From the NCBI GenBank assembly GCA_947500295.1, contig CANMRM010000001.1, forward strand, positions 372,001 to 436,000: 64,000 bases of DNA. The letters run 5' to 3'. This document shows positions 34,443 to 56,790 of the stretch, one piece after another (the first letter of the stretch is position 1; every line of letters starts with the position of its first letter). Made by a program: the position numbers and the translations under genes. A model generated the notes under the pieces. The model was not told where the DNA came from. It saw only the letters and a list, made by a program, of their open reading frames with translations, and did not search any database. Source of the stretch: an uncultured Kordiimonas sp. Its GTDB lineage: Bacteria; Pseudomonadota; Alphaproteobacteria; Sphingomonadales; Kordiimonadaceae.

Positions 34443-34540
34443 AGGCCTCCTCTATTTTTTCCCTTGTCAGCCAATGGTTACACCGCTAGATGACAGGCCA
34501 ATTTATTGGGGGCCTGAAACCTTGCGGATTGGATGATATT

Positions 34541-35527
34541 ATGAGCAGGCAAAATTTGAAACATGTCAAGGCACTGGCTGCCTCGGCAATAGTGGCGAGT
34601 TGTATTTTTTCTCCTTCGGCGCTGGCGGATACGCCTGCGGGGCTTGAAGACATGCTGAAAACGGCGGTTGCAAACGGGGATGAAGCACTGTTTGACACGC
34701 TGGTGGGAACGGCCCTCAAAACTTGGCCAGCAAGCCGGCTGGACATTCTGCAGGCTGCTGCCGCTATCGAGCCAAACTGGATTGAGAGTGACTTTGCACA
34801 GGAAGTGGCTGACGCCAAAGCTGCGGCTGAAGAAGCAGAGCGCAAATCACGCGCGCGCGGCCTCCTCTATTTTCTTGATCCGTCGCTCTGGAACACGACA
34901 GCTCAGTTTGGTGCGGCAACCAGTACCGGTGATACCGACGAGCAGTCTGTTGCGCTGGGCATCGCAATGAGCCGTGATTTTGGTGACAAGTGGGAACATG
35001 ACTTTAATCTGGATTTCGACTTCGCCCGTAGCCAGGGTGCAACTACTCGCCGCCGGATCCTGACGCGGCTAAATACGACCTACAAGGCGTGGGACGACTT
35101 GTTTTTGTCGAACTATTTTGAAGCAGATTTCAATCGCTTCTCCGGTTTTGACTACAGGTTGCTCGACAGTGTGGCTCTCGGCGTGAGGCTGGTTGACACA
35201 GATCGCCAGAAACTGCGGCTTGAGGGCGGGCCGGGTGTTCGTCTCAACAAGTTTGAAGATGATGGTTCCACATCAACAGAGTTTCTGGGCCGCGTTTCAT
35301 CCACCTATGAGTTGAAGCTTACGGACAATATTGACTTCAAGGATCAGGCTTCGATGATTTTTGGTACGGGGTCGATCACGTTTGATAACCGTGCAACATT
35401 CGGCGCGCAGATCAACTCGAGCCTTGCTGCAAGGCTGTCGTTTCAGGTGCAGTATGATTCTGATACGCCGGTTGACGCGGCTGCATGGGATACGCTGACC
35501 CGGGCGACCCTTGTCTATAAGTTCTAG
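34541..35527 (+). CDS. DUF481 outer-membrane protein
   Basis: The 328-residue product has a signal peptide (1-30, ending SPSALAD), a helical linker (about 40-110, AKAAAEEAERKSR), and a beta-barrel-like domain in which alternating strands end with the terminal aromatic (...ATLVYKF). This is the DUF481/YdiY pattern. In gammaproteobacteria YdiY is acid-inducible; the role here is unknown. The ATG at 34541 gives a better signal peptide than the longer frame at 34490. It converges on the yjbQ remnant. Confidence 0.82.
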   Translation: MSRQNLKHVKALAASAIVASCIFSPSALADTPAGLEDMLKTAVANGDEALFDTLVGTALKTWPASRLDILQAAAAIEPNWIESDFAQEVADAKAAAEEAERKSRARGLLYFLDPSLWNTTAQFGAATSTGDTDEQSVALGIAMSRDFGDKWEHDFNLDFDFARSQGATTRRRILTRLNTTYKAWDDLFLSNYFEADFNRFSGFDYRLLDSVALGVRLVDTDRQKLRLEGGPGVRLNKFEDDGSTSTEFLGRVSSTYELKLTDNIDFKDQASMIFGTGSITFDNRATFGAQINSSLAARLSFQVQYDSDTPVDAAAWDTLTRATLVYKF

Positions 35528-35530
35528 GCG

Positions 35531-35563
35531 CTATTCACCGAGCATATGGCAGGCGATGCGGAC
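35531..35563 (-). pseudogene. Remnant of the 3' end of a yjbQ gene
   Basis: On the minus strand this reads RIACHMLGE followed by TAG, against RIACHLLGE and TGA at the end of the intact yjbQ (38358). Over the 24 bases 35538-35561 it matches 38365-38388 at 23 positions, and differences are synonymous or conservative in the same frame. No other part of yjbQ is present: upstream of these codons the amidohydrolase coding sequence begins. It is a displaced gene end, not a chance match. Confidence 0.8.
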
Positions 35564-35570
35564 ACGTCGA

Positions 35571-37106
35571 TCAATTTGGGGCGCCCAGTTTTTCCTGCCT
35601 TGCCGAAAGCTGGGCGCGGTCGATTATTTTGCCGCCGAGGATCACATGACTGACCGTGTTGTAGGCTTCAATGGACTCGAGCGGGTTCTTTCTTAGCAGA
35701 ATAAGATCTGCAGTCTTATCAGGTTCAATGGTCCCCAACTCTGCTTCCAGACCAAAAGCCGTGGCATTGTCGATTGTCATGGCGGCAAGTAGTGCGTTCA
35801 AAGGGATGCCTATACGTGCCCATGTTTGCATTTCCCAGTATCCTGCTAGTCCGGGAGGAGAGCCCCATCCGAAGCCACCAACTGCTGTGTCGGTGCCAAA
35901 AATCAACCTTGCCCCACTGTTATACAGTTGTGCTATCTGTGCTTCGTAGCGCGTGTTGAAGTCTTGCTGTAAAGACCTGATCGGTTTCCCGGAGGCTTGT
36001 TCGGTAATCACATCGGCAAACATCTTGATGAACATACCTTTCTGGGCCTGAGCGTCCGTTTTCAGATAGTGGTGATATGCTCTGGGAACGACATGTTGCC
36101 AGTCTTGGTCTTCCAGTAATTCGGGTGCAAACAGAGAGAACGTATTTCGCAATGTGTTGAAAGTCGGTTGCAATCTAACACGGCTTTTGGCGAGCGACAT
36201 CAGCAGCTCGTTATATTCGGGAAGAGGGGTCATGGCATCAAAGGGCTGAGAAGGCCATTCCCACATGCCGTGGGCCAGGATATCGACCCCGGAATCAAGG
36301 GCCATGCGCACGCCCTCAGGGGTTGTGGCGTGCAACAAAACAGGCATGGAGGCAACGTGGGCCTCTTGCACCATATCCTTGATTATCTGTGGGGATGGTA
36401 GTTTGAAATCCGGCTTTTGCGGGCCGGGCCACCACAAAGCTTCTTCGTAATATAGTTTGACGCACTTGCCGCCAGCTTTCTTGACATGGTCCACCGCAGA
36501 TCGGGGTGTATGGTCTTCAGGCTTGGCAGAACCGGGAATTTGCCCGGAACTGTGGTGGTCGATCAGATAGCCCGGATAGGCCTTTTCCAACGCGCCGTCT
36601 GGGATTTCAAGCGACATAAACCCGTCGGACAGAATAACACCCTGACCGCAATGGTACAGGCGAGGTGCGACTGCTGCCTGTTCGAAACGAGCGTTGGTTT
36701 CAAAATCAGCATTGAGTTCCACAACTGACGTAAAGCCAAAATAGAGATAGCTTCGCGGTTGTTGTTCCATGTAGGCAGCGTAAAGACGATCATAGTCCTT
36801 GGTCAGGTTTCTGCGCAGGCCTGTTGCATGGTAAAGGTGCACGTGACTGTCGATCAGGCCTGGTATCAGGAACCCACCTTTGCCATCCAACTGGATGCGG
36901 CTGGTTTTGGGAGGATCACCCTGGCCGACCGCGTCAATGCGCCCTTCGTGCAGTGTTACCCATGCGTTACGAAGTGGGGTGGGCCTTTCCGGGGAAATGA
37001 CAGTTACGTTAGAAATTACAGTTTTTTCGGAGCTTTGTTCTGCAAGGTTTTCGGTTGTGCCTGTTGATGCGAGTGCACATGCAATGCAAAGGGTCTTGGT
37101 GATCAT
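35571..37106 (-). CDS. Secreted amidohydrolase (imidazolonepropionase-like)
   Basis: The 511-residue product has a short signal-like N-terminus (TLCIACALASTGTTENLAEQ) and the metal-dependent hydrolase fold: LIPGLIDSHVHLY (HxH), GGKCVKLYYEE (lysine), PVLLHATTPEG, LAHGMWEW (His) and IFGTDTAVGG (Asp). The end ELGTIEPDKTADLILLRKNP is typical of the family. GGAGG is nine bases before the ATG. It forms a cassette with the membrane AraC regulator, the two separated by a 22-bp palindrome. Substrate unknown. Confidence 0.87.
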   Translation of the reverse strand: MITKTLCIACALASTGTTENLAEQSSEKTVISNVTVISPERPTPLRNAWVTLHEGRIDAVGQGDPPKTSRIQLDGKGGFLIPGLIDSHVHLYHATGLRRNLTKDYDRLYAAYMEQQPRSYLYFGFTSVVELNADFETNARFEQAAVAPRLYHCGQGVILSDGFMSLEIPDGALEKAYPGYLIDHHSSGQIPGSAKPEDHTPRSAVDHVKKAGGKCVKLYYEEALWWPGPQKPDFKLPSPQIIKDMVQEAHVASMPVLLHATTPEGVRMALDSGVDILAHGMWEWPSQPFDAMTPLPEYNELLMSLAKSRVRLQPTFNTLRNTFSLFAPELLEDQDWQHVVPRAYHHYLKTDAQAQKGMFIKMFADVITEQASGKPIRSLQQDFNTRYEAQIAQLYNSGARLIFGTDTAVGGFGWGSPPGLAGYWEMQTWARIGIPLNALLAAMTIDNATAFGLEAELGTIEPDKTADLILLRKNPLESIEAYNTVSHVILGGKIIDRAQLSARQEKLGAPN

Positions 37107-37178
37107 TCCTTGTTGCCTCCGGTTGACATATTTTTGTGCACCATAGGCAGTTCTCTGGAGAGCCAGAAGGCCGTGACA

Positions 37179-37200
37179 GTTCTGAAACGCGTTTCAGAAC
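37179..37200. promoter_or_regulatory. 22-bp perfect palindrome upstream of the amidohydrolase
   Basis: Arms GTTCTGAAACG (37179-37189) and CGTTTCAGAAC (37190-37200) form a perfect palindrome with no spacer, 36 bases after the AraC gene stop and 73 bases before the amidohydrolase start. The GAAACG.CGTTTC core is LacI-like. No LacI-family gene is in the window. Confidence 0.6.
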
Positions 37201-37235
37201 CCCTGCCGGCGATTAATCAGGGATGATTCTGGAAG

Positions 37236-38261
37236 TTATGTGTGTGACTTGCGATATTCTGTCGGTGTTTGACCGGTGATGCGGCGAAACTCTGAATTGA
37301 AAGCCGATTTACTGATAAAGCCTGAACTCAACATGACCTCCGAGATTTGCAAGTTGCCGGATTGCAGCAGGTCTTCGCTATGGCGAATGCGAAACTCGTT
37401 CAGGAAGCGTGAAAAATTATTACCAGTACATCTGTTGATCGCCTGAGATAGTACCTTTGCAGGAAGGCCGAGCCGACGCGCCAGTCGGGCAAGACTTATA
37501 TGTGGGTCCGTGTATAACTGCTGCTCGGAGATGACTTCCCTGGCACGGTTCACCAGGTCGTGATCTTGCTGGTTCGGTGGATGCGCCTTGTATGCATTTT
37601 GGTGTCCGCGTTCCCTGTTTGCCATAAACACAGGTGCCCCAATGAGAGCTGCAACGATGGAAGCTGCTACCAGAATGCCGGTGGCCCCGGTTAAAAACCG
37701 GGTCGCCATTGCCTCCCCGCCAACAAAGTCCGCTAAAAGTATGGCTATGTCAGCCTGCAGGATTAGGCCGAGAAAGAAAACTGCTCCAATCAAACATAAC
37801 TTTACTCGAAAATACCCTTCCACAGGTATCTGAACGAAAGCATCCTCTTCCAGGTGAATGCGGGAAGCCAGCAACACCAGATAAATGCCGTTCGCAGCGG
37901 TCAACACAATTTCCGTTGACCAGCCGACGGGCAAGGCGATGCCTATTTGCACCAGAAGTGCCACGATGCCATGCAGGTAAACCTCGCGGGGTTCTGGCCA
38001 TCCCGTTTGGGTCATCAGGGAACGAAATCCCAGCCAAAGTCCCGGCGCAATCAGGGCACCGAGATGAGGCTGTGCAATCTTGGCGAATGCATAACCGTAC
38101 TCCAGTCGACTGCCTACCAGTATGCCCACCAGAGCAGTCGCCATGAGAGAAAGACTGAAAAAAGCACGCGCTCCCGGTGTTTGGTGCGTTCGTACTGCAA
38201 CTGTCGTCCCGAGAATGACAGCAAAGATCGATAAGACCCAGGGGATCGGAATGGTTGTCAT
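37236..38261 (-). CDS. Membrane-bound AraC-family regulator
   Basis: The 341-residue product (from the ATG at 38261, TGAGG upstream) has about six or seven N-terminal membrane spans (to about residue 215) and a C-terminal AraC HTH_18 domain (ISLARLARRLGLPAKVLSQA to FNSEFRRITGQTPTEYRKSH). Such proteins sense a ligand in or across the membrane. The neighbouring amidohydrolase is its likely target. An in-frame start at 38294 is possible. Confidence 0.88.
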   Translation of the reverse strand: MTTIPIPWVLSIFAVILGTTVAVRTHQTPGARAFFSLSLMATALVGILVGSRLEYGYAFAKIAQPHLGALIAPGLWLGFRSLMTQTGWPEPREVYLHGIVALLVQIGIALPVGWSTEIVLTAANGIYLVLLASRIHLEEDAFVQIPVEGYFRVKLCLIGAVFFLGLILQADIAILLADFVGGEAMATRFLTGATGILVAASIVAALIGAPVFMANRERGHQNAYKAHPPNQQDHDLVNRAREVISEQQLYTDPHISLARLARRLGLPAKVLSQAINRCTGNNFSRFLNEFRIRHSEDLLQSGNLQISEVMLSSGFISKSAFNSEFRRITGQTPTEYRKSHT

Positions 38262-38357
38262 GTTGAATGCCTCAGTCAGTAGCTGGACTCTCAAAGATGC
38301 TGCCGTTGATCTGAATAGTCATATGGTCAAGTGAGCTTCTGCCAGGAATTCTGGCCA

Positions 38358-38780
38358 TCACTCGCCGAGCAAATGGCAGGCGATGCGGCGATGGTGGCCG
38401 CGCCGCCTGTGTTCCAATAAATAAACGCCCTGCCACGTGCCGAGCCGAAGGGCGCCATCGAGAATTGGTATCGCAAGCGTAGTGCTTGTTAGCGCCGATT
38501 TGACGTGCGCGGGCATGTCATCCGGCCCTTCTGCGCTGTGGCGGTAGAGACCGGGCCCTTCAGGTGCCAGTTGGTCCAGAGCATCCAGCAAGTCATCCTG
38601 TACATCGGGATCAGCGTTTTCCTGAATGGTCAGAGAGGCTGATGTATGCTGAACCAGCAGATTGACCAGTCCTGTTGTCATGCCACATTGACGGACAAAC
38701 CCGGCAACATCGCCGGTGAATTCATGGGCACCGCGACCGCGGGTCACAACCTCGAAGGTGGTTTCATATTGCACAAGCAA
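38358..38780 (-). CDS. yjbQ: YjbQ family protein (UPF0047)
   Basis: YjbQ proteins have a conserved fold and reported thiamine-phosphate-synthase-like side activity; the true role is unsettled. The motifs are RGRGAHEFT, LVQHTSASLTIQENADPDV, GPDDMPAHVKSALT and LGTWQGVYLLEHR. The family length is about 130-140 residues; TTG at 38780 (140 codons) has GAGG eight bases upstream, while GTG at 38774 is an alternative. The longer frame to 38960 lies over hsp20 and is spurious. Its last nine codons recur at 35531. Confidence 0.88.
   Translation of the reverse strand: MLVQYETTFEVVTRGRGAHEFTGDVAGFVRQCGMTTGLVNLLVQHTSASLTIQENADPDVQDDLLDALDQLAPEGPGLYRHSAEGPDDMPAHVKSALTSTTLAIPILDGALRLGTWQGVYLLEHRRRGHHRRIACHLLGE
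38365..38388. repeat. Direct repeat: yjbQ 3' end, matching 35538-35561
   Basis: Twenty-three of 24 bases match the copy at 35538-35561 in the same orientation, 2827 bases apart. The repeats bracket the amidohydrolase/AraC cassette, as attachment-site or target-site repeats would. Confidence 0.8.
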
Positions 38781-38784
38781 GTGG

Positions 38785-39195
38785 CTAGCCTCGGATGGGG
38801 ATTGTTTTGATGGCAGGCTCCAGTTGAGGCCGGTGCAGGTCAATGTGCAACAAACCATTTTCCATGAAGGCGTCAGTGACTTCCATACCATCAGCAAGCA
38901 CGAATTTGCGCAGGAACTGCCGGGCCGCGATGCCGCGATGCAAAAATTCCTTCGACCCATTGTCGTCTTGCTGTTTGCCTCTGATGATTAGCTGATTGGC
39001 CTCCAGCGATATCGCCACATCGTCCCGTGTAAATCCGGCCACGGCCAGAGAAATCCGAATATCTTCCTCACCCATATGCTCGATATTGTAGGGTGGGTAT
39101 CCTTCACCGGCATTTTTGGCGACGCTATCAAGAACATCCTCGAGCTGATCGAAGCCCAGGAGAAACGGGCTGTTGAAAACCGACATTCGCGACAT
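38785..39195 (-). CDS. Small heat-shock protein (Hsp20/alpha-crystallin)
   Basis: The 136-residue protein opens SVFNSPFLLGFDQLEDVLD and has the alpha-crystallin domain YPPYNIEHMGEEDIRISLAV, then GFTRDDVAISLEANQLIIRG, and a C-terminal IxI-type motif (KTIPI). GGAGG lies before the ATG at 39195. It acts as an ATP-independent holdase. CTTGAT occurs about 100 bases upstream as a possible sigma-32 -35 box, but no clear -10 accompanies it, and no ROSE-type leader is convincing. yjbQ starts five bases after it. Confidence 0.9.
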   Translation of the reverse strand: MSRMSVFNSPFLLGFDQLEDVLDSVAKNAGEGYPPYNIEHMGEEDIRISLAVAGFTRDDVAISLEANQLIIRGKQQDDNGSKEFLHRGIAARQFLRKFVLADGMEVTDAFMENGLLHIDLHRPQLEPAIKTIPIRG

Positions 39196-39333
39196 TGGCA
39201 CACCTCCATCATGAGCATGAGCGAGCAGAAACAGGTCACCCGCCCCATAGTGGGCGCAGGTGTCAGTGCCATATTTTGCGCGCTCAATTGGCCTTCATCA
39301 AGAGATTTTGACAAGAGGCCGACCGATGATGGG

Positions 39334-48452: not shown

Positions 48453-49652
48453 CTAGAAATAGCGTGTGAGCCGCAGCGTGAAGTGGCTGTCCCGGCGGAA
48501 AACAGACAACAAATTACCGCTGTCTGCATTGGCAAAAAACCGGCTTTCGACCTCCAGCACCCAGTTGTCACCAAAGCGCCGTGATGCTTCAACCAGGCCC
48601 GAGATAGAGCCGTCTTCCATGTCGGTGACAAAGCCGCCCAGAAAATCGGTGTCTTCCGCGTCATTCAGCGCCAGCCGCGCGCCGACAAAAAGATCATTGT
48701 TGGCAATTGTGGGGGCAGCTTCGAGGAAGTCGTCCGAGCGGCCATCATATTGGTATTCCATCAGAACCCCCAGGTCTGCACCTGTGTCCGTCACGCCGTA
48801 AAAGGTGTATTCAAAACCACCAACCGCAGCCTCGAACGTTTCAAAAGGGGTGTCCCTGATAATGCCTTCAAATTTCCAGAGCCAGGCATCCTTGGTGTAT
48901 TGGAGGTCGAGGCCAACCTGCGTGATGTCGTCGTAAAAGGGCACAAAGACATCAGGTGTTGAACCGGGCAATAGACGTGGTTCGCGGCTGGCACCATGAA
49001 AAAAGGAAAGTCCGACATCCCAGTCGCCGATATAGTGACTGTAGCGCAGTGCAAAGTCGACATCCTGACCGTCGTCGGCACCTTCGTCAAAGCGGGCAAG
49101 GTCATTATCAACTCGACCGGGAAACCGCAGCCGTCCATCCAGGCCCGGGAACGTACGCTTGCGAAAAAACGGCATCACGTAACCGGTAATCTGTCCCCAG
49201 TTCTGGATGGTCGACACCTCGAGCATGGGCTGGCCAAGCTTGTCCTCTTCATCGATGTCTTCAACAGCATCATACTGGTTGATGATATCCACCAGGTGCC
49301 GGCTTTCCGCCACACCCCAGAAAACCTTGGCGAGGCCCGCGCGCACCGTCCATGCATCACCCGACCATCGGAGGTAGGCCTCTCGCATGTCGAAATGACT
49401 GCGTCGGTCATCCTGTCCGTCGATACGGGCGTAGGGCACAATCACCATATCCCAGGCACCGCTGTCGCTTTGCCAGCGCACATCACCTTCAAGTTGCAGG
49501 GATGGCTGGAAAGTGTCGAACTGTCCCGGGAACGCCCCGTCTTCGAAGAAGGTGCGCACTTCTGTGCCGATCGACGCACCAACGTCAAAATCACCCCCCA
49601 TGGCAGGTACGCTTGCCATGAGGAGTACGCTTGTCGCTATATGTTTGTGCAT
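48453..49652 (-). CDS. Outer-membrane beta-barrel protein of the RND operon
   Basis: The 399-residue protein has a signal peptide (ATSVLLMASVPAMGG) and an amphipathic strand pattern throughout, ending in an aromatic (LRLTRYF), as outer-membrane barrels do. It is the third gene of the RND/LolA-like operon and resembles the DUF1302-type barrels found with such exporters. It is probably the outer-membrane exit or receptor for the same cargo. Specific family unclear. Confidence 0.78.
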   Translation of the reverse strand: MHKHIATSVLLMASVPAMGGDFDVGASIGTEVRTFFEDGAFPGQFDTFQPSLQLEGDVRWQSDSGAWDMVIVPYARIDGQDDRRSHFDMREAYLRWSGDAWTVRAGLAKVFWGVAESRHLVDIINQYDAVEDIDEEDKLGQPMLEVSTIQNWGQITGYVMPFFRKRTFPGLDGRLRFPGRVDNDLARFDEGADDGQDVDFALRYSHYIGDWDVGLSFFHGASREPRLLPGSTPDVFVPFYDDITQVGLDLQYTKDAWLWKFEGIIRDTPFETFEAAVGGFEYTFYGVTDTGADLGVLMEYQYDGRSDDFLEAAPTIANNDLFVGARLALNDAEDTDFLGGFVTDMEDGSISGLVEASRRFGDNWVLEVESRFFANADSGNLLSVFRRDSHFTLRLTRYF

Positions 49653-49662
49653 GGCAGTCTTT

Positions 49663-50496
49663 CTAGCGGATGCGCCTTAGAACACCTTTGACAAAATCAT
49701 TGTCGGCGAGGCCCGTTTTGAACTTGTAGTCACTGTAGGCGATGCTCGTTGATTTGCCGGTTTGGTGGTTTTCCATAGTCAGCAGGTGAGCGCGCCAAAT
49801 GCCGCCCTCGTATTCCCGATAGTCGGAGAGAGTGAGCGTCTTCAACAGGCTGTTCTTTCGGTCGTAAAAGTCAATTTTGCGGACCTGAAAGATGTCTTGA
49901 TCAACAACTGAAACCTGACGCGTGTAGCCCGAGTTTTCGTAACGGGGAAAGCGTTCCACTACATCAACCGTCATGCCGTCAAATGTGTCTTCGCCGATAT
50001 AGTTGTAGCCATATTTGTTGAGTTCGGTAGAGGTGAAATCCTCAAATGCAAACTCGGACCCGACAAAGGGACCAGACTTGTTGGCGCTTGAAATCCTTTT
50101 TACCCGCTTGAGCGCTGGCAGGTACAGCCACTGATCATCTGCCTCCAGAATTTTGGCATGACTGAGCAGCGCTGTACCTTGCACGTCGCGGGGGGTTTCG
50201 AACACAGTGAGGGACTTGTCGCCAACGTCCTCGTTTTCTCGTTCGAGCGTTTTGAAGTAGAGCTCTCGTGTCGATGTGCGACCTGCTGAGTTGGTCAGCG
50301 TCATCACGGCGTTTACCTCTGAGCTTTCAAAGCCTGTGTCAGACCGGTCTGAGCGAGCGGCGATCTGGAAGCCTTTCTCCTCCGCGGCTGAATTTTGTGC
50401 TGACGCTGGTTCAAACGCCAGCCCGGCCAGCAGTCCGATAAGCAGACCTGCAGCTATTGCAGTTCGCGATGTGGTGTTATGCTGTTTGGTCAACAT
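49663..50496 (-). CDS. Outer-membrane lipoprotein-sorting-like (LolA-fold) periplasmic protein
   Basis: The 277-residue product (start at 50496 after GGAGG) has a signal peptide (IAAGLLIGLLAGLAFEPASA) and the 'outer membrane lipoprotein-sorting' pattern, with LEADDQWLYLPALKRVKRIS and SEFAFEDFTS. LolA-like carriers with this pattern accompany MMPL-type RND exporters and carry lipids across the periplasm. Its start overlaps the RND stop by 20 bases, so they are coupled. The 3' neighbour follows after ten bases. Confidence 0.85.
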   Translation of the reverse strand: MLTKQHNTTSRTAIAAGLLIGLLAGLAFEPASAQNSAAEEKGFQIAARSDRSDTGFESSEVNAVMTLTNSAGRTSTRELYFKTLERENEDVGDKSLTVFETPRDVQGTALLSHAKILEADDQWLYLPALKRVKRISSANKSGPFVGSEFAFEDFTSTELNKYGYNYIGEDTFDGMTVDVVERFPRYENSGYTRQVSVVDQDIFQVRKIDFYDRKNSLLKTLTLSDYREYEGGIWRAHLLTMENHQTGKSTSIAYSDYKFKTGLADNDFVKGVLRRIR

Positions 50497-52843
50497 TGTC
50501 GGTGCCTCCTTCAAGGGTTTTACCGGTAAAGAGTTTGTCTGCACCCATCAACATGAGAGCTGGCAGGAACAGGAAGTCGAACAGGAGCGCGAGACCAATG
50601 GCAAGGGCAGTCAGGAGACCAAGGTCCGCGTTGATTTTAAAGTGGGACGTGGCGAGATAGGCAAAGCCAATCACCAGAACAACCGTGTTCACGATGAGCG
50701 CCATGCCAACCATCTCGAAAGCGTATTTGATGGCACCTGCTGCATCATACCCTTTTTCCCGGATGCCACGCACAAACTTCGACAGGAAGTGAACGGTGTC
50801 ATCAACCACGATGCCGAGTGATACACTCGCGACGGCAGCCACCGAAAAGCCAACAGTGCCAACCATCAGTGCCCAGGCGCCAAAGGCGGCCAAGATCGGC
50901 AGGCCGTTTGGCACAATCGAGAGCAGACCAAGGCGCGCAGATTTGAGCGCCACCATCATCACCAGTGCAATTGCAATAATAGCGATAACATTGCCGGTGA
51001 TCATGCTGCTGACGTTGCGTTCCGCAACATATGTAAACATCACCTGCGCGCTGGTGGGTACGGTCGTTTGCATATACTCAGGAGCGTTTTCAGCAATCCA
51101 GCCCCGTGCGGCATCAAGAAACACCTTGGTGGCGATAGTGGAGGTGTTGGTAAGCGTTGCCGTTACGCGCGTCGCCGATTTGTCGATATTCACCCGGTCG
51201 TTGAGATCAAGGCCATATGGCAACGACAATTCGTATAACAGCAGATACTGGGCGGAAAGCTCGCGTTCGTCCGGCAGGCGGTACCATTCATTGTCGTCGC
51301 TATGCAGGTTGCGGTTCAGCCGCTTCATAATGTCGCTCAGGGAATAAACGTGCGTCACATTTGGCTGGGCGCGGAGAAATTCAGTGAATTCGTCCATTTT
51401 TTGCAGAAACTCGGGGTCGCTTACACCGCCTTCTCCGTTTGCCTGCACAGAAAACTCGATTGGGTAAAAGCCAAAGAACTGTGTCGAGTAATCCGAGTCG
51501 CGGCGAAACTCGATGCTTTCGTCGAAATACTCTGTCCATTGGTCGTTAAACTCGATGCGTGGCACTGCAGCAACCAGAATCACGCCAATAGCCCCAATGC
51601 CGTAAAAGAGCTTTTTATGATGGCCCACCACAAAATCTGCCAGTTTGGCCATGGCGCTTTGGCCATTTGCCTTGGCAGGCTTTGGTGCCCGCACCGGCAT
51701 CCAGCTCATCATCGCCGGCAGGAAGGTGACAGACAGTATCCAGGCCATGACAATGCCGATTGCCGACACATTGCCCAGGTGCCAGAAGGGTGGGGCATCA
51801 GAAAAATTCAACGCCAGGAAGCCGATCGCGGTCGTCAGGGACGTGACCATGACGGCGAGGAAGTTGACACGGACTGCTTCCACAATGGCATCACGTTTGG
51901 TCATGCCGTCTTTCATGCTGTTGCGCATGGTGATCAGGATATGGACTGAGTCGGCAATAGCGAGTGTCATGATGATCGTGGGCGCCGAGAGTACCATCGG
52001 GTCCATCGGCGTTCCCGAAAACCCGAGCACGCCCATACCGATCGCAGAGGCAAAGCCAATCATCAATACAGTGACAGTCGTGCCAGAGACCGTGCGTACT
52101 GTTACCGCCATTAGTACAAGCAGCAGCACATACATGATGGGTATCAGTGTCATCGAGTCAGCCATGGCTGCTTCCTGAAAAGCATTATTCAGCATGGAAA
52201 CCCCGATCATCCGGATTTCATGATTGGGATATTTTGCTTTCATTTCGTCCCGAAGGTTTCGGGCGAAAGTTACGGCTTCAGGCACTTCATCCAGGGATTT
52301 TTCTGGATATTGCACGACAACATTCACAGCTGTTGCACGGCTGTCTGATGAGATGATCTGGTTGCGCAGCAATGGTTCTGAGAGGGCAATCGATTTGACC
52401 CTGGCTAGTTGCTCTGTTGAGAGGCTATCTGCGCCGTTCACCAGATTTTCGACGATCAGGTCATCTTCTTCTGCTTCCGTGTGCTGGAAGTTTGTCAGTG
52501 AGTCCACCCGGATCGAATAGGGGATTTGCCAGGCCTGTTCTGTGAGTTCTTCGACCAGACTGAGGGTCTCATTGGTGATGACCTCGCCGTCTGGGGGTAC
52601 GATTGTGAAAAAAATGTTGTCATTTTTTGTATAGGTGCTTTGCAGGTCTTCAAAAGCTCGTAGTTCAGGGTTGGCTTCCGAGAAGAAATCTCGGTAATTA
52701 TTGGAAAACTTGAGGTGTTGCGTGCCACTTGCCACCAGAAAGGTGACGAGCAGTGTGGCAATAATCACGAGCCAGCGATGCTGGATTACGGTGTTGGCGA
52801 GTTTGACAGCAAACTCATCCATCGCAGTCATTGTTTTGGGCAC
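50477..52843 (-). CDS. RND/MMPL-family exporter
   Basis: The 788-residue protein has two six-span halves (first span about 24-44) with large periplasmic loops, and the TM4-type motif TIIMTLAIADSVHILI and SVSLGIVVDDTVHFLSKF. This is the lipid-exporting HpnN/MmpL-like branch of RND, not the three-part drug pump. The GTG at 52843 has GGGAG eight bases before it. It begins an operon with a LolA-like carrier and an outer-membrane barrel. A divergent LysR regulator sits upstream with a palindrome in the gap. Confidence 0.88.
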   Translation of the reverse strand: MPKTMTAMDEFAVKLANTVIQHRWLVIIATLLVTFLVASGTQHLKFSNNYRDFFSEANPELRAFEDLQSTYTKNDNIFFTIVPPDGEVITNETLSLVEELTEQAWQIPYSIRVDSLTNFQHTEAEEDDLIVENLVNGADSLSTEQLARVKSIALSEPLLRNQIISSDSRATAVNVVVQYPEKSLDEVPEAVTFARNLRDEMKAKYPNHEIRMIGVSMLNNAFQEAAMADSMTLIPIMYVLLLVLMAVTVRTVSGTTVTVLMIGFASAIGMGVLGFSGTPMDPMVLSAPTIIMTLAIADSVHILITMRNSMKDGMTKRDAIVEAVRVNFLAVMVTSLTTAIGFLALNFSDAPPFWHLGNVSAIGIVMAWILSVTFLPAMMSWMPVRAPKPAKANGQSAMAKLADFVVGHHKKLFYGIGAIGVILVAAVPRIEFNDQWTEYFDESIEFRRDSDYSTQFFGFYPIEFSVQANGEGGVSDPEFLQKMDEFTEFLRAQPNVTHVYSLSDIMKRLNRNLHSDDNEWYRLPDERELSAQYLLLYELSLPYGLDLNDRVNIDKSATRVTATLTNTSTIATKVFLDAARGWIAENAPEYMQTTVPTSAQVMFTYVAERNVSSMITGNVIAIIAIALVMMVALKSARLGLLSIVPNGLPILAAFGAWALMVGTVGFSVAAVASVSLGIVVDDTVHFLSKFVRGIREKGYDAAGAIKYAFEMVGMALIVNTVVLVIGFAYLATSHFKINADLGLLTALAIGLALLFDFLFLPALMLMGADKLFTGKTLEGGTDNVDQTA

Positions 52844-52912
52844 GTTGATGCTCCCTAGTTATTCATTCTTATTCAACGCTCTGGCGCAGAAACAGGTTCG
52901 CGGCCTTTTATC

Positions 52913-52938
52913 ACCTGTACCTGACAGGTAATGTCAGG
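52913..52938. promoter_or_regulatory. Overlapping inverted repeats in the RND/LysR divergent promoter
   Basis: CCTGACA (52920-52926) and TGTCAGG (52932-52938) flank a 5-base spacer; overlapping it ACCTGT (52913-52918) and ACAGGT (52924-52929) flank another 5 bases. They lie about 70-95 bases from the RND start and 100-130 from the LysR start. Two shifted half-site sets fit the sliding-dimer mode of LysR regulators. Confidence 0.6.
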
Positions 52939-53039
52939 AGGGATAGTGTCGCAGGGGCGCGATATTCTGTACTTGCGTCTATATGGATGCGACCATACCA
53001 TTTATGAAATTGATATTTATTACTTCGGATATTCATTTC

Positions 53040-53987
53040 ATGAATTTAGCGGGCCTGGATTTAAACCTCCTTCTGGTATTTGATGCCGTGATGAACGAGC
53101 GCAATGCAACGCGCGCCGGCGAGAAGATCGGTATGTCGCAACCAGCTGTTTCCAATGCGCTTAATCGCTTGCGATATGTGATGCGGGACGAATTATTCCT
53201 GCGGGGCCCAGACGGGATGAGACCAACAGCGCGGGCGCTCGAACTGGAGGTGCCGGTACGGCGCGCGCTCAGCGAAATCGAGCAGGCACTTGATCCCGTT
53301 GTTTTTGACCCGGTGACAGCAAGTCGCACCTTCACGGTCGCGACGACCGATTATGCGTCCCTGACCCTGCTTCCTTATGTCGCGAAATATCTGATGGAAG
53401 AGGCGCCTGGCGTCAATCTGCACACAATTCCAATTGAAGGCAGGCTCTATGAAAAGCTTGATGCCCAGGAAGCGCACTATGGATTGACGGCACTTGGTGA
53501 GGTTCCGGGCCGGTTCGGCAGAGAGGATATCGGTACCGATCATTTTGTTTGCCTGATGCGCAACAGTCATCCGTTAGCGAACTATTCCGAGATTCCGATT
53601 GATGAGTTTGCGGCAGCCCGCCACCTGCTTGTCACCCCTCGCGGTGATGCCAATGGGTTTGTCGATGACTATTTGAGGAGCGAAGGTCTGTCGCGGCAAA
53701 TTGCCATGACCGTAAACGGATTTGGCTCTGTGCCGATGATCATTGAGGCCAGTGACCTGATTGTTTCCATTCCCAGCACCATGGCTGAAAAATGCTGCGA
53801 GTTCTTCGATCTGAAGGTTCTGCCGTGTCCCGTTCCAAATCCTGAAGGGGTTGTGGGCGAGGTGTTGATCTGGCACCAGAGGTTAACGGATAACCCTGCT
53901 CACTCCTGGTTCAGGGATATAGTAAAACGGGCGGGAACTGATCTCAACATGAAGGGGATCAGCTGGCCGGCACAACCCATGTCTTGA
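53040..53987 (+). CDS. LysR-family regulator (NodD/PbcR-like)
   Basis: From the ATG at 53040 the 315-residue protein starts NLAGLDLNLLLVFDAVMNER with the helix-turn-helix GEKIGMSQPAVSNALNRLRY and a periplasmic-binding-like domain (about 95-290). It resembles the NodD branch. An earlier frame from 52983 adds 19 unrelated residues. It is divergent from the RND exporter operon and likely controls it through the palindrome between the two. Confidence 0.88.
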   Translation: MNLAGLDLNLLLVFDAVMNERNATRAGEKIGMSQPAVSNALNRLRYVMRDELFLRGPDGMRPTARALELEVPVRRALSEIEQALDPVVFDPVTASRTFTVATTDYASLTLLPYVAKYLMEEAPGVNLHTIPIEGRLYEKLDAQEAHYGLTALGEVPGRFGREDIGTDHFVCLMRNSHPLANYSEIPIDEFAAARHLLVTPRGDANGFVDDYLRSEGLSRQIAMTVNGFGSVPMIIEASDLIVSIPSTMAEKCCEFFDLKVLPCPVPNPEGVVGEVLIWHQRLTDNPAHSWFRDIVKRAGTDLNMKGISWPAQPMS

Positions 53988-55464: not shown

Positions 55465-56790
55465 GTGCCCAAACTCCTTGCAACATCCAGAAAGGCACTT
55501 GCCGGCACGGTTCGTGTGCCCGGTGACAAGTCGATTTCGCATCGCGCCCTGATGTTGTCCACGCTGGCCGTTGGCCGGTCGGAGGTCACCGGGCTGCTTG
55601 AGGGCGAAGATGTGCTTGCAACCGCCGCTGCAATGCGTGCGATGGGGGCAAAAATCAATCGACTCGGCGAGGGCCATTATGAAGTGTTCGGCGTTGGTGT
55701 GGGCGGACTGCTGGAACCAGATGACGTCATCGATATGGGAAACTCTGGCACGTCAACCCGGCTGCTGATGGGCCTTGTCGCCAGCCATGACATCACTGTC
55801 ATGATGACAGGCGATGCTTCCCTTCGGGGTCGGCCGATGGGCCGCGTGATAACGCCGCTTTCCAGCATTGGTGCAGAAATAACCGCCCGTGATGGACGTT
55901 TTTTGCCACTTGCCGTCCAGGGAACGGACGAAGCCCTGCCTGTTGACTATACACCGCCTGTGGCGAGTGCGCAGGTTAAGTCCGCCGTTTTGCTTGCAGG
56001 GTTGAACACCCTTGGGCGCACTGTTGTGCGTGAGAAAACAGCCACCCGTGACCATACCGAGCGCATGCTGACGGCAATGGGTGCCGATGTTCGGGTCACC
56101 GAACAGGCTGGCGGCCGCGTGGTCAGCATTGAGGGCCTGCCCGAACTGACGCCGGTCAGTTTCTCTGTGCCGGGCGATATTTCGTCGGCGGCGTTTGTGC
56201 TTGTGGCGGCATCTATCGTGCCGGGATCAGATGTCACGCTTGAAGGTGTTGGGCTTAACCCTCTGAGAACCGGCATCCTCCCGGCTCTGCGTTCGATGGG
56301 CGCGGATATTGAGATTGTGAACGAATCGACGCTTGGCGGAGAACCGGTGGGTGACATCCGTGTGCGGGCTGCCCGGCTTAAAGCAACCAGCGACGTCGGT
56401 GTAGACCCTTCGACAATGATCGATGAGTTTCCGGTCCTGTTTTGTGCTGCTGCCGTAGCGGAGGGCACAAGCCGCTTTATGGGACTCGAGGAATTACGCG
56501 TAAAGGAATCGGACCGACTCGCCGCGATGGCTGCCGGACTCGCCGCAAACGGGGTAAAGGTTGAAGAAACGCCGGATGGTCTCATTGTCCATGGTATGGG
56601 CGGTAAGGTGCCCGGTGGGGGAGCGGTCCAGACGCATCTGGACCATCGTATCGCCATGAGTTTTGCCGTACTGGGTCAGATGGCAAAATCCCCGGTGACT
56701 ATCGATGACGCTGCGCCCATCCAGACCAGCTTCCCGAGCTTCATCGACTTGATGGCCGACCTCGGTGCCGGGCTTTCGCTTGACGGCTGA
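55465..56790 (+). CDS. aroA: 3-phosphoshikimate 1-carboxyvinyltransferase (EPSP synthase)
   Basis: AroA makes EPSP from shikimate-3-phosphate and PEP in aromatic amino acid synthesis. The 441 residues show the alphaproteobacterial (class II-like) pattern: VPGDKSISHRALM, LLEGEDVLAT, VASAQVKSAVLLAGLNT, TRDHTERML, ELRVKESDRLA and THLDHRIAMSF. The PEP-site motif is GNSGTSTRLL; where the glyphosate-tolerant CP4 enzyme has Ala after GNA, this has Gly, so no tolerance is implied. The start is GTG. It begins the core cluster and is followed directly by the antisense VOC gene. Confidence 0.96.
   Translation: MPKLLATSRKALAGTVRVPGDKSISHRALMLSTLAVGRSEVTGLLEGEDVLATAAAMRAMGAKINRLGEGHYEVFGVGVGGLLEPDDVIDMGNSGTSTRLLMGLVASHDITVMMTGDASLRGRPMGRVITPLSSIGAEITARDGRFLPLAVQGTDEALPVDYTPPVASAQVKSAVLLAGLNTLGRTVVREKTATRDHTERMLTAMGADVRVTEQAGGRVVSIEGLPELTPVSFSVPGDISSAAFVLVAASIVPGSDVTLEGVGLNPLRTGILPALRSMGADIEIVNESTLGGEPVGDIRVRAARLKATSDVGVDPSTMIDEFPVLFCAAAVAEGTSRFMGLEELRVKESDRLAAMAAGLAANGVKVEETPDGLIVHGMGGKVPGGGAVQTHLDHRIAMSFAVLGQMAKSPVTIDDAAPIQTSFPSFIDLMADLGAGLSLDG

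Follow-up and report, generated by a model that had tools for sequence, protein, structure and literature searches.

Repeated gene ends that flank an insert are usually read as integrase attachment sites, and both gene-end targets and cis-mobilizable elements (CIMEs) are known (PMC5704250). Another described route of gene gain, homology-facilitated illegitimate recombination (HFIR), was found in natural transformation of Streptococcus pneumoniae, Acinetobacter baylyi and Pseudomonas stutzeri, the three competent species named in PMC3240628. Bidirectional terminators are known as well (PMC12207403). The locus analyzed here has traits in common with each of these systems. It lies in a 64,000-nucleotide stretch (hereafter the window) of an uncultured Kordiimonas sp. 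(assembly GCA_947500295.1, contig CANMRM010000001.1, positions 372,001 to 436,000 of the forward strand) and consists of an amidohydrolase gene and an AraC-type regulator gene placed between yjbQ and a convergent DUF481 gene, with the last codons of yjbQ present on both sides of the gene pair. Comparison with relatives suggests recombination as the route of entry and retention of the left-behind gene piece, which may serve the neighboring gene.

The locus resembles CIMEs and other decayed integrative elements in that a direct repeat of a gene end flanks the insert, the gene is whole and no mobility genes were seen; however, no related integrase-bearing element for this site was seen either, the remnant lengths seem to vary in relatives and one relative has interleaved repeats of two gene ends. 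The likeness to HFIR lies in a homologous join on one side and an illegitimate join on the other, with a gain of foreign DNA while some of the resident gene is either lost or stays behind, but here the process is read from its end products alone. As in shared terminators of convergent genes, there is a convergent pair and a junction hairpin that could stop transcription; in contrast to them, the hairpin is coding sequence in one of the partners and gives a synonymous-codon signal, and in a relative without the gene the left-behind piece may do the work by itself.

The Duplicated Gene End and the Empty Site

The end of yjbQ was found twice in the window as a 24-mer on the same strand, at 38365-38388 and 35538-35561 (23/24 identical, spacing 2827 bp). 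The former copy is within the last ten codons of the intact gene, whose stop is at 38358-38360, and the latter is in frame with a TAG stop at 35531-35533. At up to 3 mismatches there were only these two copies in the window (mean of 100 dinucleotide shuffles 0.00), and a 23-base version at the same threshold recovered only the same two across the whole 4.27-Mb genome. The shuffles and the absence of further genome copies rule out chance similarity, and the duplication, already pointed out in the preliminary description together with its in-frame stop, is confirmed. The core also has a near-copy at 55818, which lies on the opposite strand within a gene that we take to be aroA-like and was regarded as a chance match. 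The features of the locus are the following:

34490-35527, + strand: DUF481 gene (Pfam PF04338, E 1.1e-41; synteny), converging on the left-behind yjbQ end, in relatives on yjbQ itself
35531-35561, - strand: displaced native yjbQ end, 9 codons in frame with stop TAG, including the 24-mer at 35538-35561
35571-37106, - strand: amidohydrolase, insert gene (Amidohydro_1, PF01979, E 1.5e-20), apparently secreted (signal peptide by eye)
35576-35593, + strand: weak, small terminator-like hairpin with TTTTT (consensus scan), just inside the insert as read from DUF481
37179-37200, no strand: perfect 22-bp palindrome GTTCTGAAACGCGTTTCAGAAC between both insert genes, possibly operator-like
37236-38294, - strand: AraC-type regulator, insert gene (HTH_18, PF12833, E 4.6e-18), N-terminal half hydrophobic by eye
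38358-38783, - strand: intact yjbQ (UPF0047, PF01894, E 3.7e-38), its end holding the second 24-mer copy at 38365-38388
38376-38410, + strand: hairpin from the yjbQ coding tail in the DUF481-strand reading, putative DUF481 terminator in empty-site relatives
38785-39201, - strand: hsp20 gene directly upstream of yjbQ (PF00011, E 1.8e-16), with its own end duplicated in one relative (G015)

The comparison set consisted of 19 genomes of the genus, 15 of them with a yjbQ match, including the window's own (G000). In 12 of the 15, yjbQ converged directly on DUF481 with nothing in between: the aligned gene ends were at most 16 nt apart in 11 genomes (G001, G003, G005, G006, G008, G011, G012, G013, G016, G017 and G018) and about 60 nt apart in G010. 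G000 and G015 had an insert between the two genes, and G002 had no DUF481 gene beside yjbQ. The comparison shows the empty site, with the window holding an insert, as was expected in the preliminary description for relatives lacking the cassette, namely yjbQ converging on DUF481 with a single copy of the end.

The position of the left copy was then read from its flanks. On the yjbQ strand its TAG is followed by bases that align with the sequence next to DUF481 at empty sites such as that of G013, the sequence preceding its core is foreign, and nine foreign bases stand between the amidohydrolase stop and the yjbQ remnant; the end now carried by yjbQ has foreign DNA after it. Since the left copy adjoins native DUF481-side sequence and has foreign sequence before it, the alignments show it to be the resident yjbQ end in displaced position, in agreement with the earlier reading of the far copy as the old gene end at the border. 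There was no colinear yjbQ match in the window before the core of the displaced end. One of five gapped comparisons, against the window's own yjbQ, gave p 0.018 and was discounted, as it had three gaps and lay within the amidohydrolase gene.

Over the last nine codons and the stop, the two window ends matched at 25 of 30 positions, the five differences being one Leu to Met replacement, two silent changes and two that swap the stop codons. The same 25/30 was found between the intact end and G013 and between the displaced end and G003 or G015. Third codon positions of neighboring orthologues were mostly 33-51% identical between the species compared. The high identity of the 24-mers suggests a recent event at first sight, but the yjbQ tail is conserved between species and the two ends are as unlike as orthologues from separate species, so this identity is no sign of recency. 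A difference of this size points to separate histories of the two ends, by either an old event or import of one end.

When 27 bases were compared and as many as 5 mismatches allowed, the single tail match of the window was at the level of internal segments (0.8 per 157 open reading frames, ORFs), so that it is the 24-mer, together with the evidence from relatives, that gives the repeat its significance. The idea that gene ends are duplicated generally in the genus was rejected. Among the ORF tails scanned in 64-80 kb of each of six genomes there were 1, 0, 0, 0, 2 and 0 matches, against 0.8-1.0 for internal segments in each, and these matches were the end of yjbQ in G000 and the ends of yjbQ and hsp20 in G015; at the loose threshold the tail matches do not exceed the internal-segment rate.

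No tail copy was present downstream of yjbQ in 13 loci from other genera (11 from other families, 2 from the same family), where the best downstream likeness had 9-10 mismatches of 27 in most and 11 in the rest. DUF481 was directly beside yjbQ in two of these loci (G039 and G020), about 1.4 kb off in two (G046 and G055) and not found in the examined stretch in the remaining nine. In G024 (L009), a short GCGAATGACCT-like unit occurs three times directly after the yjbQ stop, a small-scale duplication of the gene's last bases. In G007 (L165 1270-1402), hsp20 adjoins DUF481, yjbQ is missing and no remnant was found.

The Inserted Gene Pair

The family identities given in the preliminary description for the amidohydrolase, the AraC-type regulator and yjbQ agreed with the Pfam assignments, and its 22-bp palindrome is present; the 14-base core of the latter had one occurrence in the window at up to 2 mismatches. 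The insert had a G+C content of 51-54% against 53-59% around it and is thus slightly lower, a difference in composition of the kind that the preliminary description advised looking for. Among the matches listed, the amidohydrolase family was present in 57 of the 59 searched genomes, including the window's own, with nearly all matches weak; the best other relatives were those of G027 (44% identity) and G015 (47%, continuing on another contig piece at 58%). In public genomes, a scan gave 12 loci whose amidohydrolase relatives share 44-57% identity, among others in Gammaproteobacteria, Maricaulis, Hyphomonas, Parvularcula and Acidobacteria. An AraC-like gene was located upstream in divergent orientation in three of the 12, some of the others having little upstream sequence. 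Taken together, the amidohydrolase/araC pair is supported as an acquired two-gene insert at the yjbQ/DUF481 junction. Amidohydrolase/AraC pairs found elsewhere in G015, G020 and G003 (L055, L057 and L058) were divergent, unlike the tandem pair of the window.

Occupation of the Same Junction in Relatives

In G015 a different insert of 4.84 kb occupied the space between yjbQ and DUF481, encoding a von Willebrand A-domain protein and three others, among them a small protein with a weak Phage_base_V match (26.0 bits versus a cut-off of 23.8). Its yjbQ end was repeated with 35/36 identity and the displaced copy was again beside DUF481. The comparison thus shows the same junction to have taken a different insert in G015, and the question raised in the preliminary description, whether other cassettes use the yjbQ end, receives a positive answer. 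The end of hsp20 was also duplicated in this genome, as a 53-nt repeat (47/53; L045 7166-7218 and 10326-10378) immediately behind the stop of yjbQ; between hsp20 and yjbQ there was another insert, which carries a DUF488 gene. The resulting order, hsp20 end, insert A, yjbQ, yjbQ end, hsp20 end, insert B, yjbQ end, DUF481 (H1-A-yjbQ-Y1|H2-B-Y2), is interleaved. One attachment-site integration would not leave such repeats; the order fits either a tandem duplication followed by replacement or hsp20/yjbQ-anchored pieces joined illegitimately at gene ends. Beyond its 36-base repeat, the displaced end of G015 matched G003 at 13/14 (0/500 shuffles) and its own yjbQ at 11/11 (p 0.038), offset by a small insertion; the remnant thus probably extends past the repeat and reaches about 21 bases further into yjbQ than that of the window.

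A tandem duplication of yjbQ as the first step, with an insert then replacing or deleting the body of the downstream copy and leaving its tail, would account for the fact that the G015 yjbQ stop directly abuts the second hsp20 end, which is what a duplication from hsp20 end to yjbQ stop gives. The window, however, has neither a second hsp20 end nor a colinear yjbQ body before the displaced end, its two ends differ like orthologues of different species, and two events would be needed per genome, which makes this origin unlikely.

G014 had no yjbQ match, but beside DUF481 it retained a 15-base core identical to that of G018, preceded by 23 colinear bases of which 18 matched G003 (p 0.006 versus shuffles). 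The remnant of the window starts at the CCGCATC core, while that of G014 reaches 23 bases further, and the remnants of the window, G014 and G015 thus seem to start at different bases. After the G014 remnant came the foreign genes for LysR, alcohol dehydrogenase and cytochrome b561 and then a LysR/MMPL/LolA cluster (L161 4639-10246), which in the window lies about 10-15 kb from yjbQ (48456-53987). In G009, a near relative of G014, the same cluster adjoined DUF481 without extra genes or remnant. Since yjbQ is gone in G014 and the region is rearranged, this genome was set aside as a clean third integration. The location of the LysR/MMPL/LolA cluster beside DUF481 in G014 and G009 is consistent with an inversion bordering at the yjbQ/DUF481 junction.

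The preliminary description had proposed integration into the end of yjbQ, leaving the gene whole and the old end at the far border, by an element whose integrase had decayed or acted from elsewhere. The insert, the whole gene and the displaced end all stood, and the geometry is exact for gene-end integration, in which the element restores the gene and the displaced end forms the far border. A site-specific element, that is an integrative and conjugative element, an integrative mobilizable element or a prophage derivative, would in this case have entered the 3' end of yjbQ by a tyrosine recombinase since lost or provided in trans, so that the locus would be CIME-like and the repeats would be attL and attR. 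The direct repeats with the gene end at both borders, the one-copy empty site and the second, unrelated insert at the same gene end in G015 all agree with such an origin. The part of the earlier claim concerning a decayed site-specific element is not supported. Neither insert had a recombinase or relaxase among its Pfam matches; the genome has seven integrase-family (PF00589) matches, six of them on other contigs and one on the contig of the window, at a distance of about 550 kb. In G014 and G015 the remnant seems to include more of yjbQ than in the window, and the interleaved hsp20/yjbQ repeats of G015 do not suit it either. Eight phage records hold a distant yjbQ, and the single IMG/VR contig found to carry yjbQ has a gene that by eye is integrase-like, 1.6 kb away from it with another gene in between. 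A recombinase in trans is conceivable, which leaves some room for a decayed element of the CIME type, but altogether we consider it a rather doubtful explanation. A literature search for yjbQ in connection with an integration site and a genomic island found no paper, and in a broader one none of the matches listed was on yjbQ; no further search was aimed at this point.

The yjbQ Tail as a Putative Terminator of DUF481

On the DUF481 strand, several empty-site relatives have a strong hairpin in the tail of yjbQ, for example G003 (-26.1 kcal/mol), and in G011 a 15-pair stem runs into TTTTTC. The T-run after the hairpin was clear in G011 and in the G014 remnant and weak in G003, G013 and G018. 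In the window, positions 38358-38420 gave a fold of -27.0 kcal/mol (z -1.42). Fold stability was also tested against shuffles of synonymous codons within each gene, and the groups, corrected for the window's own yjbQ and for a near-identical pair, comprised 21 tails adjacent to DUF481 (G039 included), 13 tails not adjacent and 102 internal segments. For the last 18, 22, 25 and 30 codons, respectively, the mean z was -1.82, -1.76, -1.40 and -0.94 in the adjacent tails and -0.75, -0.69, -0.21 and -0.20 in the non-adjacent ones (p 0.012, 0.018, 0.005 (0.0048) and 0.041), reaching -2.10, -2.02, -1.68 and -1.11 in ten congeners alone. Internal segments had a mean z of -0.14 at 25 codons (adjacent versus internal, p 1e-5). 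In a control with 114 greedily called ORFs having a convergent neighbor within 50 bp, the value was -0.21 compared to -0.23 in mid-gene, and the signal is not general for convergent genes. The yjbQ-tail hairpin in relatives with adjacent DUF481 is therefore more stable than the protein requires. The intact yjbQ tail of G015, which no longer touches DUF481, had no signal (z 0.21).

The remnant of G014 had a hairpin with z -3.48 followed by TTTTTT, while the codons between the hairpin and DUF481 had decayed. A consensus scan found 10 terminator-like sites in the window stretch versus 4.8 (sd 2.2) in its shuffles, and the short site just inside the window insert may stand in for the lost hairpin. 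Backed in the relatives, and only in part in the window, the left-behind yjbQ end may persist as the terminator of DUF481. In the extreme form of this proposal the far copy would have been kept purely by selection as the 3' untranslated region or terminator of DUF481, with the two genes arriving by ordinary insertion. The synonymous-shuffle result agrees with it, and so does G014, which keeps the hairpin and T-run next to decayed codons; but selection by itself leaves the presence of two yjbQ ends unexplained and the hairpin of the window is not intact, and as a sole cause it appears very unlikely.

Proposed Route of Acquisition

The explanation which we favor overall, at about even confidence, is that the acquired pair entered by homology-anchored recombination with an illegitimate far join and that the debris lasts as a terminator hairpin of DUF481. 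Horizontally acquired araC/amidohydrolase DNA would have entered the convergent yjbQ/DUF481 junction, bringing its own yjbQ end and perhaps a whole yjbQ. Homologous recombination would have taken place on the hsp20/yjbQ side, and at the far end an illegitimate join would have been made within the final ten codons of the resident gene. In this way yjbQ would have remained whole, while the resident end stayed beside DUF481 as debris, which may have lasted since the yjbQ coding tail, in relatives, seems to double as a transcription terminator hairpin of DUF481. Such a homology-anchored route is preferred because it needs no recombinase, allows the remnant lengths to vary and can explain G015. The far side has the appearance of an illegitimate join with little homology: foreign bases abut the remnant and no colinear match precedes it.

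Several observations weigh against this explanation. No donor junction was found, and the recombination route is thus inferred. Similarity of yjbQ to its relatives showed no clear jump, and both yjbQ and hsp20 look typical of the genus without a visible breakpoint, which does not show that a foreign yjbQ was imported. A gene transfer agent was rejected as the carrier, its marker PF13547 being present in 0/19 genomes. In G046 and G055, two genomes of a single genus from a different family, yjbQ and DUF481 are about 1.4 kb apart (in G046, L151 870-2141, a 423-codon ORF, class V aminotransferase-like by eye; the G055 locus is L155), with no copy of the yjbQ end at either junction. Likewise, G009 and G007 lack yjbQ and had no remnant either by pattern or by eye. 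These four genomes without a left-behind end indicate that the debris is not always kept. As for the hairpin, the displaced end of the window kept one arm and folded no better than shuffles (z -0.61), and the remnant of G015 had a middling fold (z -1.55). Finally, the tested sequences come from related species and are not independent, which makes the p values of the hairpin test optimistic.

Significance

The terminator reading of the yjbQ tail goes beyond the finding of the repeat itself. We tentatively propose, as a possibility rated well below even, that in this genus yjbQ and DUF481 share the former's coding end, which finishes the protein on one strand and terminates DUF481 on the other. 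This would constrain inserts at the junction, which must either bring or leave a yjbQ end, and the debris would persist as a stand-alone terminator, as in G014, with the junction continuing to take inserts. Should recombination with retention of a gene piece prove to be the right reading of the locus, it would offer a testable explanation for the repeated arrival of inserts at some convergent junctions and for the persistence of gene-end scars.

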